From assembly GCA_005882135.1 (NCBI GenBank), contig VBDR01000056.1, positions 1-39,010 on the forward strand: DNA of 39,010 nt, written 5' to 3'. Of this stretch, positions 14,618 to 19,912 are shown piece after piece. Each line of letters starts with the position of its first letter. Position 1 is the first letter of the stretch. This DNA comes from Chloroflexota bacterium. GTDB lineage: Bacteria; Chloroflexota; Dormibacteria; Dormibacterales; Dormibacteraceae. Both the position numbers and the translations under genes were made by a program. The notes under the pieces were generated by a model. That model was not told the origin of the DNA. It did not search any database and was given only the letters and a program-made list of their open reading frames with translations.

Positions 14618-15577
14618 TTAAGCGGCGCCCAGGTGCTGGATGGTTGGTAGCTCGCTCGCGAGCAGCTCGACGGTCTCCGGGTCCCACTGCGAGCCCGATC
14701 CTGCGCGGAGCACGGCGAGCGCCTCCTCCGTCGAACGGCGCGTGCGGTAGGGACGGTCGTTGACGAGCGCATCGAATGCATCGCATACAGACACGATGCG
14801 GGCCACGCGCGGTATCTCTCGCGCGCGCAAACCATCTGGATATCCGTGCCCGTCGAAGCGCTCATGGTGGTGGCGGATGATCGGCAGCAGGCCAGAGGTC
14901 GAGCGCAGAGGTTTCACGATCGATTCGCCGATCGCGACGTGCGCCTGCATCTGGGGCACCTCGATCGCGTCCAGCGGCCCCGGCTTGTGCAGGATCGAGT
15001 CCGACACGCCGATCTTCCCGATGTCGTGGATCATGCCGCCGCGATAGAGCGTCTCCAGGGCATCGTCGCCAAGCCCCAGGCGCTGGCCCAGAAAACGGGC
15101 TGATTCGCCGACCCGCTGCGTGTGCCGCTCGGTGAACGAGTCCTTAGCTTCGACCGCAGTCGCGAGCGAGAAGATCACGTGCTCCGCGCCGTCGAGGGTG
15201 TTGTACAGCTCCTTGAGGCGAAGCGCGGAGCGGACGCGTGCGATGAGCTCGGCCCCTTCGACCGGCTTGGCCATGAAATCGTCAGCCCCCGCCTCGAGTG
15301 CCATCACCCTGTGCGTCGTCTGGCTGAGTCCGGTGATCATCACCACCGGCAGCAGCCGGCCGCCCGGCATCGCCTTGATCCGCCGGCATACCTCGTAGCC
15401 GTCCATGCGGGGCATGCGCACGTCGAGCAGCACCAGGTCTGGCGGGTCGATCCCAATCATGTCGAGCGCGGTCATCCCGTCCGCGGCCAGGCGCACCTCA
15501 CAGTCGATGGTCGAAAGGTACAGGCGAATCAGCTCGCGATTCGCCGCACCGTCGTCAACGACCAGAACCACTGGCAT
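14618..15577 (-). CDS. Response regulator with HD-GYP phosphodiesterase domain (RpfG-like)
   Basis: From ATG 15577 the protein has 319 residues. A receiver domain (about 1-120) has the acidic pair VVDDG, phospho-acceptor Asp52 in LLDVRMPRMDGYEV and the conserved Lys in FMAKPV. An HD-GYP domain follows, with metal ligands in GMIHDIGKIGVSD and HHHERFDGHGYPDGL. Such proteins hydrolyse cyclic di-GMP when phosphorylated. No partner kinase is adjacent; the nearest histidine kinase gene starts at 17732 on the other strand. The frame extends upstream to 15634, but homology begins at MPVVLVVDD. It converges with ppc, with a 53-base gap. Confidence 0.92.
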   Translation of the reverse strand: MPVVLVVDDGAANRELIRLYLSTIDCEVRLAADGMTALDMIGIDPPDLVLLDVRMPRMDGYEVCRRIKAMPGGRLLPVVMITGLSQTTHRVMALEAGADDFMAKPVEGAELIARVRSALRLKELYNTLDGAEHVIFSLATAVEAKDSFTERHTQRVGESARFLGQRLGLGDDALETLYRGGMIHDIGKIGVSDSILHKPGPLDAIEVPQMQAHVAIGESIVKPLRSTSGLLPIIRHHHERFDGHGYPDGLRAREIPRVARIVSVCDAFDALVNDRPYRTRRSTEEALAVLRAGSGSQWDPETVELLASELPTIQHLGAA

Positions 15578-15695
15578 CAGTCCCAACGCCCCCTTGAGCC
15601 ACGAAGTGGATGGGCCACCGGCCTCTATTGTCAACCCAGCCTAACCGCTGACCGCAAGTAGGAACGCCGGGCGCCCCCGCGCCAACCAAACTGGG

Positions 15696-17099
15696 TCAGG
15701 CGATGGCGATGCTGGGGGTGGCGGTCGACGTGGAGGAAGAGGTGCCGAGAGCCGCCAGGGCGAGCTTCAACTGCTGGTTGGCGGCGGCCAGGTCGCCACG
15801 TCGCTCCAGGACCTCTGCGTAGGCGGCGCGGTAGCGCGCATGGCGCTCGCGGCTGCCGCCGTCATCGGGATCGGCCAGCGAGGCGGCAAACTCGACGTCG
15901 ACCGCCTGTTGATCGTCGCGGGCAAGCGCGACCTGCGCCAGCCAATAGTGCCCATCGGAGGTGGTGCCCGTCTCGTGATGGCGCTCCGCGAGCGCAACCG
16001 CCTCCCGAGCCACACTCTCGGCGGTCGCCAGATCCCGTTTCGCGAGCAGCAGCTCGGCGAGGCTGAGGAGGAGCTGGGCCTTGCCGGTCTCCACCTCTGC
16101 CTGCTCGAAAAGGCTCAACGCGCGTTCGATGTGAGGCTCCGCCCGCGCCACGTCGCCCGCCCGCAGGAGCAAGATGCCGAGGTTGTTTTCAGATCGCGCC
16201 AGCGAGAGCCGGTCGTTGAGCGTCTGGTGGATCGCAAGCGCCTTCTGCGCGTAGCGGCCGGCCTGGTCGAGCTGACCCAGCTCCTGGTAAGCGACGCTCA
16301 GGCCGCTGTACATGAGCGACAGTTTGTACAGGTCCTGAACCACGTCGGCAGCCCGGATCGCCTCCTCGTAACACTCGATCGCGCCCTGCCAATCGCGGCT
16401 CGCGATGAGCGTGTGCCCGAGGACGCTGAGCAACCGCGACTCGACCACCTTGGGGACCGGCTTCAGCGAACGCACCGTGGCCAGCGCGCCTCGGGCGATC
16501 TTGACCGCGCTCGCGTCCTCCATCAGGTACGCGGCCGAGGCCTCGTTGCCTAGGGCTTCCGCGACCATCATCAGGTCGCCTGCACGCTCGAAGTGCTCGC
16601 GCGCGGCGGAGGCGAGCCGCCGTCCCACCACCGGCTGCGCCAGCCGGAGGTGAGCGAGCGATGTCACGAGCCTGATTCGGGCTTCGGTGTCAGGGTCGCA
16701 CTTGGTGTCGAGAGCGGCCTCGCCGGCGGTCACGACCGCAGTGTTGTCGCCGGTGGCGAGAAGTCGCTCGAGCTCGGCCAGCTTGGCGGCGGGGACGAAC
16801 TGCATCCCTTCCGAGCCGGCGAGGAAAAAGTCCACAGGCTGACCCGTCCGATCGGCGATCAGCTGCAGTGTCTCCATCGAGGGCTTGGCCTTGCCGGTCT
16901 CGACGAAGTAGATGGCGGTGCGGCTTATATCCCCGCGGGCGACGTCGCCGAGGCTGAGCCCCGCCTCCAGCCGGGCTTGCTTGACCGAGCCGGGCCTGAT
17001 CTCCACGCCCCGCCGCCGACCTCGACGACGGCCCGAGGCGGCTTTCGTCTGCCCACTCGAGCCGTCGGTCTCAGCCGGGCGCGCAACTTCGTCTGGCAC
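15696..17099 (-). CDS. XRE-family helix-turn-helix regulator with TPR sensor domain (RRNPP-like architecture)
   Basis: This 467-residue protein has a Lys/Arg-rich start (GRRRGRRRG), an XRE helix-turn-helix at about 32-95 (VKQARLEAGLSLGDVARGDISRT without gaps in the sequence, then ETGKAKPSMETLQLIADRTG), and then roughly eight tetratricopeptide units to residue 450 (for example YSGLSVAYQELGQLDQAGRY). HTH plus TPR is the architecture of RRNPP regulators, whose TPR cup binds a small secreted peptide (PlcR/PapR, Rgg, PrgX). The GTG start at 17099 has no clear ribosome site; a promoter-like TTGTCA-16-GTTAAT would make the message leaderless. GTG at codon 32 is an alternative start. Immediately upstream on the same strand is a 32-codon signal-peptide gene, which supports, but does not prove, a peptide partner. 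Confidence 0.85.
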   Translation of the reverse strand: MPDEVARPAETDGSSGQTKAASGRRRGRRRGVEIRPGSVKQARLEAGLSLGDVARGDISRTAIYFVETGKAKPSMETLQLIADRTGQPVDFFLAGSEGMQFVPAAKLAELERLLATGDNTAVVTAGEAALDTKCDPDTEARIRLVTSLAHLRLAQPVVGRRLASAAREHFERAGDLMMVAEALGNEASAAYLMEDASAVKIARGALATVRSLKPVPKVVESRLLSVLGHTLIASRDWQGAIECYEEAIRAADVVQDLYKLSLMYSGLSVAYQELGQLDQAGRYAQKALAIHQTLNDRLSLARSENNLGILLLRAGDVARAEPHIERALSLFEQAEVETGKAQLLLSLAELLLAKRDLATAESVAREAVALAERHHETGTTSDGHYWLAQVALARDDQQAVDVEFAASLADPDDGGSRERHARYRAAYAEVLERRGDLAAANQQLKLALAALGTSSSTSTATPSIAIA

Positions 17100-17132
17100 G
17101 ACGGCCAGATTAACGTAGAAGAGTTTGAATTG

Positions 17133-17150
17133 ACAAAACGCTTACAAAAC
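17133..17150. promoter_or_regulatory. Direct repeats upstream of the XRE-TPR gene
   Basis: ACAAAAC occurs at 17133-17139 and 17144-17150, an 11-bp period that puts both copies on the same face of the helix. The pair overlaps the candidate -35 box (TTGTCA on the minus strand) of the regulator and lies directly after the peptide gene's stop. It is a plausible autoregulatory site for the HTH protein. Confidence 0.4.
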
Positions 17151-17249
17151 TTAGCTACAGCACGGCGGGACGTTCCCCGCGGACACCGTGGCTGCCATGG
17201 TCAGGATCGCGGAAGTCGCCAGGATGGCGGCAAAAAGCAGCTTGCGCAT
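17151..17249 (-). CDS. Tiny secreted peptide precursor (32 aa), candidate signalling peptide
   Basis: ATG 17249 to TAA 17151 encodes 32 residues. A near-perfect anti-Shine-Dalgarno match (AAGGAGGTGATC) ends about seven bases before the ATG. The product is a textbook signal peptide: MRK, a 17-residue hydrophobic core (LLFAAILATSAILTMAA), and VSA at residues 22-24 as a signal-peptidase site. Cleavage would release the octapeptide GNVPPCCS. The Cys pair could form a disulfide or be modified. It lies 51 bases upstream of the XRE-TPR regulator and 51 bases downstream of an 82-residue membrane protein gene, all on the minus strand. A short exported peptide next to an HTH-TPR protein is the signature of RRNPP quorum-sensing pairs. 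Being too short for normal gene callers, it has probably been missed in relatives. Expression is unproven. Confidence 0.7.
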   Translation of the reverse strand: MRKLLFAAILATSAILTMAATVSAGNVPPCCS

Positions 17250-17300
17250 TGAAAAGATCACCTCCTTTGCCGTGCCGGCCCCGGGTTAAAAAAGTCGCGT

Positions 17301-17549
17301 CTAGTCGACGGAGGCGGAGGCGACCCGAAGCCCACGAGCGGTCGAGAATCGAACCGCCAGGCCGCCGGCCGCCACCGCCAACTTCACCCCGCCCGCGATC
17401 GCAACCAAGCTCCCCAAGCCGGCAGCCGGCCACCCTCCAGGTGCGGGCCGAAGCCCGAAGCCCACGAGGGCAGGCAGCACAGCTCGTGCCACGGCCACGC
17501 CTCCGACAACGAGAGCGGCGGCGACCCGGCCGGCGCTCGCGGTGGCCAC
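17301..17549 (-). CDS. Small two-helix membrane protein
   Basis: This 82-residue protein has two hydrophobic stretches, about residues 7-30 (rich in Ala/Val/Leu) and 43-66, with a short Pro/Gly loop between (RPAPGGWPAAG) and a polar C-terminus. The start is GTG 17549 with GGAGGGGG just upstream, a good ribosome site. I do not recognise a family. It is first in a three-gene minus-strand set with the tiny secreted peptide and the XRE-TPR regulator. It could help export, process or sense the peptide, but nothing in the sequence shows that. An overlapping 96-codon frame on the same strand is lower in quality. A palindrome sits immediately before the ribosome site. Confidence 0.55.
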   Translation of the reverse strand: MATASAGRVAAALVVGGVAVARAVLPALVGFGLRPAPGGWPAAGLGSLVAIAGGVKLAVAAGGLAVRFSTARGLRVASASVD

Positions 17550-17559
17550 GTCCCCCTCC

Positions 17560-17572
17560 AGGTCAGTGACCT
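17560..17572. promoter_or_regulatory. Perfect 13-bp palindrome before the small membrane protein
   Basis: AGGTCA-G-TGACCT is a perfect palindrome located 11 bp upstream of the GTG at 17549, directly before its ribosome site. It is a likely operator for the membrane-protein/peptide/regulator set. The rest of 17573-17731, up to the histidine kinase start, holds no gene that I can support. Confidence 0.5.
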
Positions 17573-17673
17573 CGCGCGCCGACCCCTTCTCCTCCCAATC
17601 CGCCGAAATCGCAGTCCTCCACTAAGCCGTGCTCCACGCCCTCGCGGCTGTGCTACAAGTAACTGCCCCGCCA

Positions 17674-17702
17674 TGTTAAATCAAAACCGAGATCACTTAA
17701 CA
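17674..17702. repeat. Inverted repeat upstream of the histidine kinase
   Basis: TGTTAA (17674-17679) and TTAACA (17697-17702) are inverted arms 17 bases apart in an AT-rich patch, 30 bases before the kinase GTG. A second small hairpin, CCCC-TAT-GGGG, lies between it and the start and includes part of the ribosome site. This could be a promoter region or an operator. Confidence 0.35.
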
Positions 17703-17731: not shown

Positions 17732-19912
17732 GTGAGCAGTCAGGCCTACGCTCGACGCGTGCAGGCGCAAGCCATCGCCGTCCCGCAACCGCGAACGTTC
17801 GCGGTCACCGGCCTTGGCCTCGAGGGATGGAGACCTTTCGGGATCGCGGCGGCGGCAGCCGTCCTGGTTTCGGTCCTGTTCGTCGAATGGACGGCCAATC
17901 GCTGGATCAGCGACGAGGCCACGATCGCCCTCGACGACATCGGCGAGGCGGTCGCGGCCTTGATCGCCGCCGGCAGCTGCGCGTTGGCGGCGACCCGCAA
18001 CACCGGCCGCACGCGGTGGGCCTGGTCGTTCTTCGCCGCCTCCGCATTCAGCTGGGCCCTGGGTGAGGTGGTCTGGTCTTATTTCGAGGTCGGACGCGGG
18101 ATTGAGGTCCCGTTCCCCTCGGCCGCCGATGCCGGCTACCTGCTTGCGATCCCGTTCGCGCTCCTTGGCGTCTTCGCTTTCACGTCAGCCCCAACACGCC
18201 TGGCCACCCGAAGCGAAACAGCGCTCGCGGGCTCGATCGTCGCCCTCTCTCTGCTGTTCATCGCGTGGGCGTTCGGGCTCGGCAAGGTTTACGAGTCCTC
18301 GTCGGCGACTCCGGCCGCCCAGGTCATCGGGCTCGCCTATCCGGTCGGCGACATCGTCATCGCGACCGTCCTGGTGGTCGCATTGCGCCGGGCACGCAGA
18401 GCGGAGGTGGGGCGATTGGCGCTGCTGCTCGGTGGACTTGCTTTCAACGCGCTGGCGGACAGCTCATTCGCGTATCTCACGGCCAACGGCACCTACAGCG
18501 CTATCGGCAGCGTGCTCGACGCCGGGTGGGTGATCGGCTACCTGATGATCGCCCTGGCTCCGCTGTGGCCGGCACGCGCGGTCGACGAGGTGCGGACCGA
18601 AGGTCCGATCGAGCTCTGGCAGCTCGCCCTGCCATGGGTCGCGGTGCTCGCCGCCGCTTTCACGGCATTCAGGCTCGCGCTGATCGACCAGAACATGGAC
18701 CGGTTCTCCACCGTGCTCGCCGCGGGCATCGCAATCCTGTTCGTCGCCAACCAGGTCCTGACCCACCGCGACTCGCTCGATCTGCTGCACAAGAGCCAGC
18801 ACACCGAAACTCAGCTGGGGCGGCGTAACAACCTGCTCGACGAAATCATCAACCACGCCCCGCTCGGCATCGCCCGGGTCGGCCCGGATATGAACATCGT
18901 CGACGTCAACCCGCGGATGGCAGCTCTGCTGCGCACCGACCCGCAGAAGATCATCGGAGTTCCGGTCGCGAAGTACCTCCACCCAGATGAGTTCGCACGG
19001 GTCTTTCAGATCTTCCAGCCTCTCTGGAACGGCTCCGTGGACACGGTCGAATCCGACAGCCGCGCGATTCGCGGTGACAACTCGGAGGTCTGGCTGCACT
19101 GGAGCGCGACCGGGGTGCGTAACGCCGCGGGCCGGATCGATTACTTCCTCGCGATGTACGAGGACACCGACGCGGAGCATGCAGCCAACGAGGCCGCCGC
19201 CGCGCATCTCGCGGGCCTCGAACGCCTGAATCGATTGAAGAGCGAGTTCGTCTCCCTGGTCAGCCACGAGTTCCGCACCGCGCTGGTGGGCATCTCAGGA
19301 TTCAGCGAGATGATCCGCGACGAAGATGTCTCCCTGGAGGAAGCCAAGGGCTTCGCCGCCGACATCAACAAAGACGCCGAACGGCTCAACCGCATGATCA
19401 ACGACATGCTCGACCTCGACCGCATCGAGGCCGGGCGGCTGACGATCCACCTGCAGCCCGTCGACCTCAACGGCCTGCTGGACGACGCGGTCGGCAGGGC
19501 CCGGGCTTCGAGCGCACGGCACGTCATCGTCTGCAAATTCGATGCTCAGCGGCCGATCGTGCAGTGCGATCCTGACCGGATCGCACAGGTTGTCGCCAAC
19601 CTGCTCAGCAACGCCATCAAGTACTCGCCTGACGGTGGAGAGATCATGGTCAGCAGCCTCGCGCGTGATGGCCAGGTCGACGTCAGCATCCGCGACCACG
19701 GTGTCGGCATCGCACCCGAATTCATCCAGCGGCTGTTCAGCCGTTACGAGCGGTACGAGAAGACGAGCAACAAGATCCTCGGCACGGGGCTCGGGCTCGC
19801 CATCACGAGGCAGATCATCGAGATGCACGGCGGCAAGATCTGGGTCGACAGCGACCCAGGCGCTGGTTCCGACTTCCACTTCAACCTGCCGGTGACCGCC
19901 GCGAGGGACTGA
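17732..19912 (+). CDS. Multi-pass membrane PAS sensor histidine kinase
   Basis: The protein has 726 residues. Residues about 35-335 contain roughly eight or nine membrane helices (an MHYT/7TM-like sensor, family not recognised). A PAS domain follows at about 370-490 (IINHAPLGIARVGPDMNIVD, then YFLAMYEDTDAEHAANEA). The HisKA helix has phospho-accepting His512 in SLVSHEFRTALVGI; the usual Pro after HEFRT is Ala here. The ATPase domain has NLLSNAIKYSPDGG, DHGVGIAPEF and GTGLGLAI. No response regulator is adjacent; the HD-GYP response regulator at 14618 is the nearest. The GTG start follows a GGGGGA ribosome site. Confidence 0.92.
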   Translation: MSSQAYARRVQAQAIAVPQPRTFAVTGLGLEGWRPFGIAAAAAVLVSVLFVEWTANRWISDEATIALDDIGEAVAALIAAGSCALAATRNTGRTRWAWSFFAASAFSWALGEVVWSYFEVGRGIEVPFPSAADAGYLLAIPFALLGVFAFTSAPTRLATRSETALAGSIVALSLLFIAWAFGLGKVYESSSATPAAQVIGLAYPVGDIVIATVLVVALRRARRAEVGRLALLLGGLAFNALADSSFAYLTANGTYSAIGSVLDAGWVIGYLMIALAPLWPARAVDEVRTEGPIELWQLALPWVAVLAAAFTAFRLALIDQNMDRFSTVLAAGIAILFVANQVLTHRDSLDLLHKSQHTETQLGRRNNLLDEIINHAPLGIARVGPDMNIVDVNPRMAALLRTDPQKIIGVPVAKYLHPDEFARVFQIFQPLWNGSVDTVESDSRAIRGDNSEVWLHWSATGVRNAAGRIDYFLAMYEDTDAEHAANEAAAAHLAGLERLNRLKSEFVSLVSHEFRTALVGISGFSEMIRDEDVSLEEAKGFAADINKDAERLNRMINDMLDLDRIEAGRLTIHLQPVDLNGLLDDAVGRARASSARHVIVCKFDAQRPIVQCDPDRIAQVVANLLSNAIKYSPDGGEIMVSSLARDGQVDVSIRDHGVGIAPEFIQRLFSRYERYEKTSNKILGTGLGLAITRQIIEMHGGKIWVDSDPGAGSDFHFNLPVTAARD

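Follow-up and report, generated by a model that had tools for sequence, protein, structure and literature searches.

The window analysed here is a stretch of DNA of 39,010 nucleotides (nt) from a member of the Dormibacteraceae (phylum Chloroflexota; contig VBDR01000056.1 of assembly GCA_005882135.1). On its minus strand lie, 5' to 3', a gene for a small membrane protein, a gene for an exported-peptide-like product of 32 amino acids (aa) and a gene for a regulator with a helix-turn-helix (HTH) domain and tetratricopeptide repeats (TPRs). The peptide and the regulator probably constitute a self-sensing module that works like RRNPP quorum sensing, outside the Firmicutes. An earlier reading of the letters alone (the sequence-only reading) had proposed such a cassette. 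Its coordinates, gene order, strand and both 51-nt gaps were borne out by a check of the open reading frames (ORFs), and its core, an exported propeptide with an HTH-TPR receptor, passed the computational tests, whereas the binding sites that it proposed were not upheld, nor was a core role for the membrane protein. The coordinates of all features are collected in Table 1.

Within its genome assembly, which spans 2.7 Mb and is 85% complete, the window makes up contig C2. The relatives of this genome are soil metagenome-assembled genomes (MAGs) named Chloroflexi or Candidatus Dormiibacterota (20/20 loci, named collection). The first clade set consisted of 22 loci, namely 20 relatives, the window and L024, and contains the near-copies L008/L014, L010/L011 and L003/L005.

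The propeptide has the layout MRKLLFAAILATSAILTMAATVSA|GNVPPCCS when read from its ATG; the ORF list gives 36 aa from an upstream GTG. The strong ribosome site that had been ascribed to this 32-codon gene is present as AAAGGAGGTGATC (17268-17256, before the ATG), and GGAGGTGA precedes the peptide start codon at all 22 loci. An ORF of 30-32 codons with the pattern MRK[LF]..AA... was found upstream of the regulator at 22/22 loci, the window included, and each of these peptides ends with Cys-Cys plus 0-1 residue; one filter used for this count demanded Cys-Cys, two other listings of the peptides did not. The tails of the window's clade are 6-9 residues long. By eye, the N-terminus shows an Arg-Lys start and a hydrophobic core, with Val or Ala at position 22 and Ala at position 24 in 22/22 peptides analysed. 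Small residues at these two positions are the classical signal-peptidase pattern, and by its composition the propeptide appears to carry a Sec-type signal peptide, canonical by eye. The ratio of nonsynonymous to synonymous substitution rates (dN/dS) is 0.33-0.45 for the codons of the signal part, which indicates purifying selection, and 0.46-0.73 for the faster tail codons 25-28, as expected of an ORF that is translated and kept as a protein.

Whether relatives of the regulator keep the short ORF next to them had been named as a test that could refute the idea, and the ORF proved to be kept both at the 22 clade loci and in a search that was not anchored on the regulator. A peptide profile was run regulator-blind on 101 genomes of the class, with a cut of E<=0.01 that was chosen after the list had been seen. 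It gave 41 matches, 38 of them on the same strand as a regulator match and 28-120 nt (match end to match start) ahead of it. The three exceptions are a 307-aa frame (G376), a match at a contig end where the regulator would fall off the contig (G396:C154), and a peptide that lies 1.3 kb from a regulator on the opposite strand (G405). Matches above E 0.01 (to E 1) were mostly short matches within long frames, with a few more beside regulators. The gap between peptide gene and regulator, 51 nt in the window, is about 50-70 nt in the clade. Regulators were found in 38/42 genomes of the window's family and in 54/101 of the class sample.

A generic filter for exported peptides (an ORF of 22-40 codons that begins with basic residues, has a hydrophobic core and a small-residue cleavage motif, follows a ribosome site and lies within 300 nt upstream) was applied to 77 of the 81 regulators; L019 and L076 were left out because of N runs, and L127 and L108 because they lie too near a contig end. 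A candidate exported peptide with a ribosome site was found in the 300 nt before 50 of the 77, compared with 19/5652 random windows of the same loci, 4/1540 shuffles and 0/77 antisense stretches. The broader filter without the Cys-Cys demand added one member to the window's clade, L075, whose peptide ends PPVG. At L043 a possible further peptide ending GSWSPFAP lies upstream of the regulator; its basic start is weak and the filter missed it. Peptide-like ORFs without an adjoining regulator match were seen at L103 (...ALADGPCCYSSALSAQN, at a contig end) and L102 (...ALADYIGPHVPTS).

More distant HTH-TPR genes were fetched as well, 18 from outside the class and 2 from inside. The upstream region was examinable in 17 of these 20 (15 outside the class); L144 gave no match, and for L139 and L147 the match starts within the gene. 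A candidate peptide was found at one of the 17, L152, a member of the phylum outside the class, where an exported candidate ending CVPGWGC precedes the distant HTH-TPR gene.

Paralogous regulators are accompanied by peptides of their own, similar in the signal part and different in the tail. Tails of the WPP type read DGWPPHI, GSWPPGT, DVWPPVR and DSWPSGH; further tails are STGPG[IV]/STGPHI, IGPT(P/G), CHC[SF] and DGIPAPWAPVGP. A sister family has WPNP or WPAP tails, some of them after a lipobox-like Cys. This Cys was seen before the WP tail in peptides upstream of regulators at L124, L125, L132 and L133, and recalls pheromones that are cut from lipoprotein signal peptides. Four systems occur together in genome G247, with WPP (L035), STGP and IGPT (both L107) and IGPT (L108) tails. 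A tree of 79 of the 81 regulators (L076 and L123 were too short) requires 18 changes of tail type; shuffles average 46, and 0/200 of them are as low, a clustering that is inflated by near-copies. In the tail scoring for this tree L019 is wrongly given as lacking a peptide that is present, and the 60-aa 'peptide' of L134 is doubtful. The STGP tails form one clade (support 100/99).

Co-divergence of tail and receptor was assessed by Mantel tests in three rounds of 4, 15 and 6 comparisons on 16-17 loci, uncorrected and with relatedness partly controlled. The first round used 17 loci, and two of its four tests were void for missing data. The second used 16, with the near-copies L014, L011, L005 and L019 dropped, and the third also 16, with L014, L011 and L019 dropped and L003 left out for its partial kinase. 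Mean distances in the clade were 0.48 for the TPR domain, 0.21 for the HTH domain and 0.30 for the flanking kinase (16 loci), and 0.18 for the HD-GYP protein (15 loci). The partial correlation of tail with TPR given the kinase was 0.34 (2/2000 permutations) and 0.35 (1/2000); that of the signal part with TPR given the kinase was 0.02 (841/2000) and 0.08 (527/2000). Judged by these distances, the tails diverge in step with the TPR domain once the kinase is corrected for, and the signal peptides do not.

The regulator, of 467 aa, has the HTH-TPR architecture that had been read from its letters: Pfam places HTH_3 at residues 39-91 and several TPR families score above their cut-offs. An AlphaFold2 model built from 19 rows (mean predicted local distance difference test, pLDDT, 83.7; predicted TM-score, pTM, 0.67) has an N-terminal HTH and 18 TPR-like helices, that is, nine pairs. 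Foldseek was run against the PDB, and the best 50 of 215 matches at E<=0.001 were considered. Among these, 14 Rap rows have the highest TM-scores (query TM 0.48-0.60, target TM 0.61-0.76). The predicted fold supports a peptide-binding type of TPR superhelix, not descent from RRNPP. The PDB phmmer, Pfam and NCBIfam matches include no entry of an RRNPP family, only generic TPR and HTH families. Since no sequence match to RRNPP receptors was found, the module is described as working like RRNPP and not as a proven member, and membership by descent is not claimed.

Candidate promoter P1, ahead of the membrane gene, has a -35 element TTAAGT (17700-17695) and a -10 element TAACAT (17678-17673). The operator-like repeat that overlaps it recurs as GTTAA[GT]T-N13..16-TTAAC at the corresponding candidate promoter of 22/22 loci of the first set, and is absent from every paralogue-clade locus compared. 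In its own assembly the P1 repeat is the sole match, and 15 of 17 genomes of the same genus hold one match each. Upstream of a peptide-regulator pair lie 14 of these 15; the fifteenth (G095) stands at the corresponding distance from the end of a contig where no more than the first codons of the peptide remain. The clade with IGPT tails has another repeat, TTGACA-N3..7-GTNAA[CG]TCA. It sits at 9/9 IGPT cassettes, which come from 8 genomes, and the 10 genomes searched hold no further match; this pattern read backwards gave 0 matches, and the G027 site matches on both strands. The presence of either repeat at the cassettes is by construction, since the patterns were read off them; the result is their rarity elsewhere. 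The half-site GT[TC]AA[GC]TCA recurs by eye at P1 and at candidate promoter P2. We infer that the regulator binds the P1 repeat.

Before the regulator start codon a pattern like GTCAAgTC...TAAGCTGGC is largely kept across the clade, and the -10 of P2 reads TAAGCT in most relatives. The regulator mRNA is probably leaderless, because only 7 nt separate the P2 -10 from the start codon. The presumed leader transcribed from P1 has a mean column identity of 76% (16 loci). The evidence that it forms a hairpin is weak, with 8 pairs of which 1 shows a two-sided change, and no Rfam match was found in the window.

The module would act as follows. The propeptide would be exported and cut after [VA]-x-A, releasing GNVPPCCS, and the peptide would re-enter the cell through an Opp-type importer. 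Uptake of this kind is possible, as the genome encodes six Opp-type binding proteins (SBP_bac_5), a count that covers the binding proteins only. Inside the cell the peptide would bind the TPR groove of its cognate regulator and alter the occupancy of the regulator at the P1 repeat, and perhaps at the related half-sites of P2. The peptide operon would thereby respond to peptide concentration, as might the genes of the divergent kinase and of the downstream HD-GYP protein. The loop would be mainly self-directed. The repeat covers both the -35 and the -10 of P1, so peptide-relieved repression, a positive feedback, is likelier than activation, with the sign not established. Through its adjacent terminal cysteines, the signal of the window's clade might be cyclic or depend on redox state. 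The balance tips slightly towards Dormibacterota having evolved, perhaps independently of Bacillota, a diversified family of peptide pheromones with cytosolic receptors, a family that comprises at least five tail types, reaches four systems in one genome and in at least two clades has a private self-directed operator at the cassette only.

It is unlikely that the peptide is instead an effector, such as a small ribosomally synthesized and post-translationally modified peptide (RiPP), an antimicrobial or a membrane-active peptide, under the control of an HTH-TPR regulator that senses something else. The two cysteines of the small exported peptide, and the neighbouring small membrane protein as a possible immunity protein, would suit an effector, and the regulator gives a generic TPR match, far under cut-off, to the RiPP-linked family HaaT. 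However, neither the cassette nor the five window genes that were compared between loci include a maturation enzyme or a transporter (the other flanking genes were not annotated), the membrane protein is shortened or unrecognisable in some relatives that keep the peptide, and the clade tails are short and diverge with the TPR domain. That same link between tail and TPR domain bears on the view that the unprocessed propeptide monitors export, building up in the cytosol when secretion is impaired and binding the regulator. The conserved signal part agrees with such a monitor, in which TPR binding of the uncleaved peptide is a conjecture, but it is the tail and not the signal part that tracks the TPR domain, and this explanation is the least probable of those considered.

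The short ORF could also be a cis-acting leader, an upstream-ORF attenuator such as a cysteine sensor that reads the terminal Cys-Cys codons, given its place ahead of the regulator and the Cys-Cys next to the stop in all clade members examined but one. This is very unlikely, as selection has kept the amino-acid sequence of the signal part, Cys-Cys is missing in L075 and in several sister clades, so that the cysteines are not conserved throughout, and the regulator has a candidate promoter of its own downstream of the short ORF. Similarly improbable is a reading in which the divergent membrane histidine kinase, and not the TPR regulator, has the exported peptide as its ligand. The kinase is the divergent neighbour at 20/20 clade loci compared, and the tail shows a weak correlation with the N-terminal half of the kinase given its catalytic part (r 0.25, 12/2000). 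Once TPR is given, though, the tail follows neither the whole kinase (r 0.12, 257/2000) nor its N-terminal half (r 0.10, 366/2000), the tail follows TPR once the kinase is accounted for, and the peptides of other clades, where the presence of the kinase is unexamined, adjoin an HTH-TPR regulator.

Several observations weigh against the self-sensing module. The strict filter found no candidate peptide before 27 of the 77 regulators; four of these (L070, L073, L080 and L081) show a visible peptide with a weak ribosome site and were counted as misses. Two neighbouring ACT-linked clades comprise 13 rows without a peptide, 12 of them evaluable and counted among the 27, so the receptor fold needs no peptide. 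L075 keeps the regulator and the operator and still has a different tail end, dN/dS of the tail codons is not above 1, and Cys-Cys and WPP tails need 7 and 3 changes on the tree and are not single clades, so that repeated origin or loss of a tail type is possible. In the PDB phmmer search the regulator sequence finds generic TPR proteins (LGN and kinesin light chain), the best E-values among the best 50 of 215 Foldseek matches belong to LGN/Pins (query TM 0.39-0.51) and not to Rap, and TPR superhelices are generic folds that resemble one another. The tail correlates weakly with the HTH domain given the kinase (partial r 0.19, 56/2000), besides the weak signal from the kinase N-terminal half, in tests that are uncorrected and partly controlled. 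Both operator patterns derive from the cassettes themselves, that of the Cys-Cys clade read backwards gave 4 matches in the same 17 genomes, no regulatory target beyond the operon was found, and the genomes searched are incomplete MAGs. What the sequences show is conservation, pairing, co-divergence and private operator-like repeats; export, uptake, binding, the sign of regulation and the output are proposed.

The peptide-less ACT-linked regulators are an internal negative control or else orphan receptors. A small ACT-type ORF was seen upstream by eye in 8/10 of the displayed rows, and Pfam ACT was found in the one that was scanned. These regulators (L037, L040, L044-L051, L113, L126 and L127) mostly stand beside such an ORF, and several peptide-less regulators share, by eye, a stretch resembling GGGAAGCACTCTGACCGCGACC ahead of the regulator.

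Table 1. Features of the cassette and its neighbourhood in the window
Feature	Positions	Strand	Basis
REC-HD-GYP protein, predicted cyclic di-GMP (c-di-GMP) phosphodiesterase, downstream	14618..15634	-	Pfam, NCBIfam; 17/20 loci
Regulator, XRE (HTH_3) with nine pairs of TPR-like helices; proposed to regulate transcription and to be the cytosolic receptor of the peptide	15696..17099	-	Pfam, predicted model, Foldseek
Candidate regulator promoter P2: -35 TTGTCA (17136-17131), 18-nt spacer, -10 TAATCT (17112-17107)	17107..17136	-	conserved pattern; function inferred
Gene of the 32-aa propeptide: signal peptide with Val-Ser-Ala at its end, followed by GNVPPCCS	17151..17249	-	ORF calls, 22-locus comparison, profile search, dN/dS
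Shine-Dalgarno sequence AAAGGAGGTGATC of the peptide gene, before ATG	17256..17268	-	GGAGGTGA kept in 22/22 loci
Small membrane protein, possible start ATT 17609; earlier GTG start 17549	17301..17609	-	ORF calls, alignment of relatives
Conserved, presumed transcribed P1 leader, 63 nt, ending GGAGGACTGCG; possible hairpin	17610..17672	-	16-locus alignment
Operator-like inverted repeat GTTAAGT-N15-TTAAC overlapping candidate promoter P1	17675..17701	-	clade conservation, genome-wide pattern search
PAS histidine kinase, divergent neighbour	17732..19912	+	Pfam; 20/20 clade loci compared

The membrane gene exists at 17301-17549 as the sequence-only reading had it, and its start may lie at an ATT (17609-17607) 20 codons upstream, in frame with the GTG and directly after GGAGGACTGCG. 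Many relatives have a non-standard ATT or ATC, right after a GGAGG...CTGC(G) stretch, as a possible start of the membrane ORF; at L012 and L020 a GTG precedes this site, and at L008/L014 the ATT is out of frame. No Pfam family was found for this ORF at E<=0.1. Its product is shortened, different or unrecognisable in several relatives, and it appears to be accessory to the module and degenerate in some relatives. The palindrome proposed as a binding site at 17560-17572 exists, with an odd centre. L003 and L005 hold imperfect versions of it, and none of the remaining rows has it in the part of the alignment compared. The palindrome would sit inside the longer, ATT-start membrane ORF, and was rejected as an operator, the better site being at 17675-17701. 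What had been called an 11-bp direct repeat is the 7-nt word GTTTTGT present twice at a distance of 11 nt (17150-17133), and its second copy overlaps the -35 of P2; the repeat is not conserved across the clade loci and was likewise rejected as an operator.

The kinase and HD-GYP neighbours may be the output of the module; the PAS kinase is a possible output in itself or a possible partner of the HD-GYP protein, and the neighbourhood points to c-di-GMP as a possible output. The HD-GYP gene was not found at L009 and L013, and the contig of L022 ends inside the regulator. No relatives in viral contigs were found by tblastn among 160 pattern matches. Elsewhere in the window, between 26000 and 33000, AT skew is unusually high in places and reaches 0.205 in the composition profile.

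According to the accessible text of a survey of receptor-pheromone signalling, only complete Firmicutes genomes were taken, besides viruses (PMC10075063). Literature searches, with preprints (bioRxiv) and most subscription journals outside their coverage, found no peptide signalling of this type for Chloroflexi, Chloroflexota or Dormibacterota; as far as these searches show, an RRNPP-like module has not been described in Dormibacterota. If the module is real, this uncultured soil group would hold a second lineage of such signalling, itself diversified, and the strategy would extend beyond the Firmicutes. It would also provide an independent data set on the evolution of peptide-receptor specificity and a handle on social behaviour in Dormibacterota.

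Cysteine-responsive leader peptides occur in mycobacteria, and the peptide gene resembles them as a short ORF that ends in cysteine codons. It differs from them in its conserved signal peptide, in the clades without Cys and in the separate candidate promoter of the regulator. Many RRNPP pairs have the peptide gene downstream of the receptor, unlike the upstream position found here. The pairs share with RRNPP systems the HTH domain, the short tail, the large number of divergent pairs and the occurrence of several in some genomes. They differ from those of Firmicutes in the phylum, in the lack of a receptor sequence match and in their canonical TPR sequences, and from RRNPP systems in the Cys-Cys tail of the window's clade and an operator-like repeat at their own promoter only. 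NprR has a layout of an HTH and nine TPRs, and the predicted regulator is like NprR/NprX-type receptors in this respect; no NprR chain is among the best 50 of 215 Foldseek matches, with no dedicated comparison run. The highest TM-scores among these 50 link the regulator to Rap/Phr, a nine-TPR system with Rap-Phr complexes in the PDB.

Five criteria for RRNPP pairs are given in the accessible text of PMC10075063: a propeptide of 10-100 aa, Sec export, a receptor of about 250-500 aa, TPRs, and genes that are direct neighbours. Four of these were found here, with propeptides of 30-32 aa in the 22 clade loci, a regulator within the size range, TPRs and adjacent genes, and Sec export was judged from composition by eye. 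The cassette resembles the RRNPP (RRNPPA) systems Rap, Rgg, NprR, PlcR, PrgX and AimR in having a small, apparently Sec-type propeptide beside a TPR receptor of 250-500 aa (PMC10075063). The regulator retains the HTH that the Rap subfamily, by the accessible part of PMC12700828, has lost, and its predicted nine TPR-like helix pairs are like the nine-TPR clans that the same part of that source places among RRNPPA receptors (PMC12700828).

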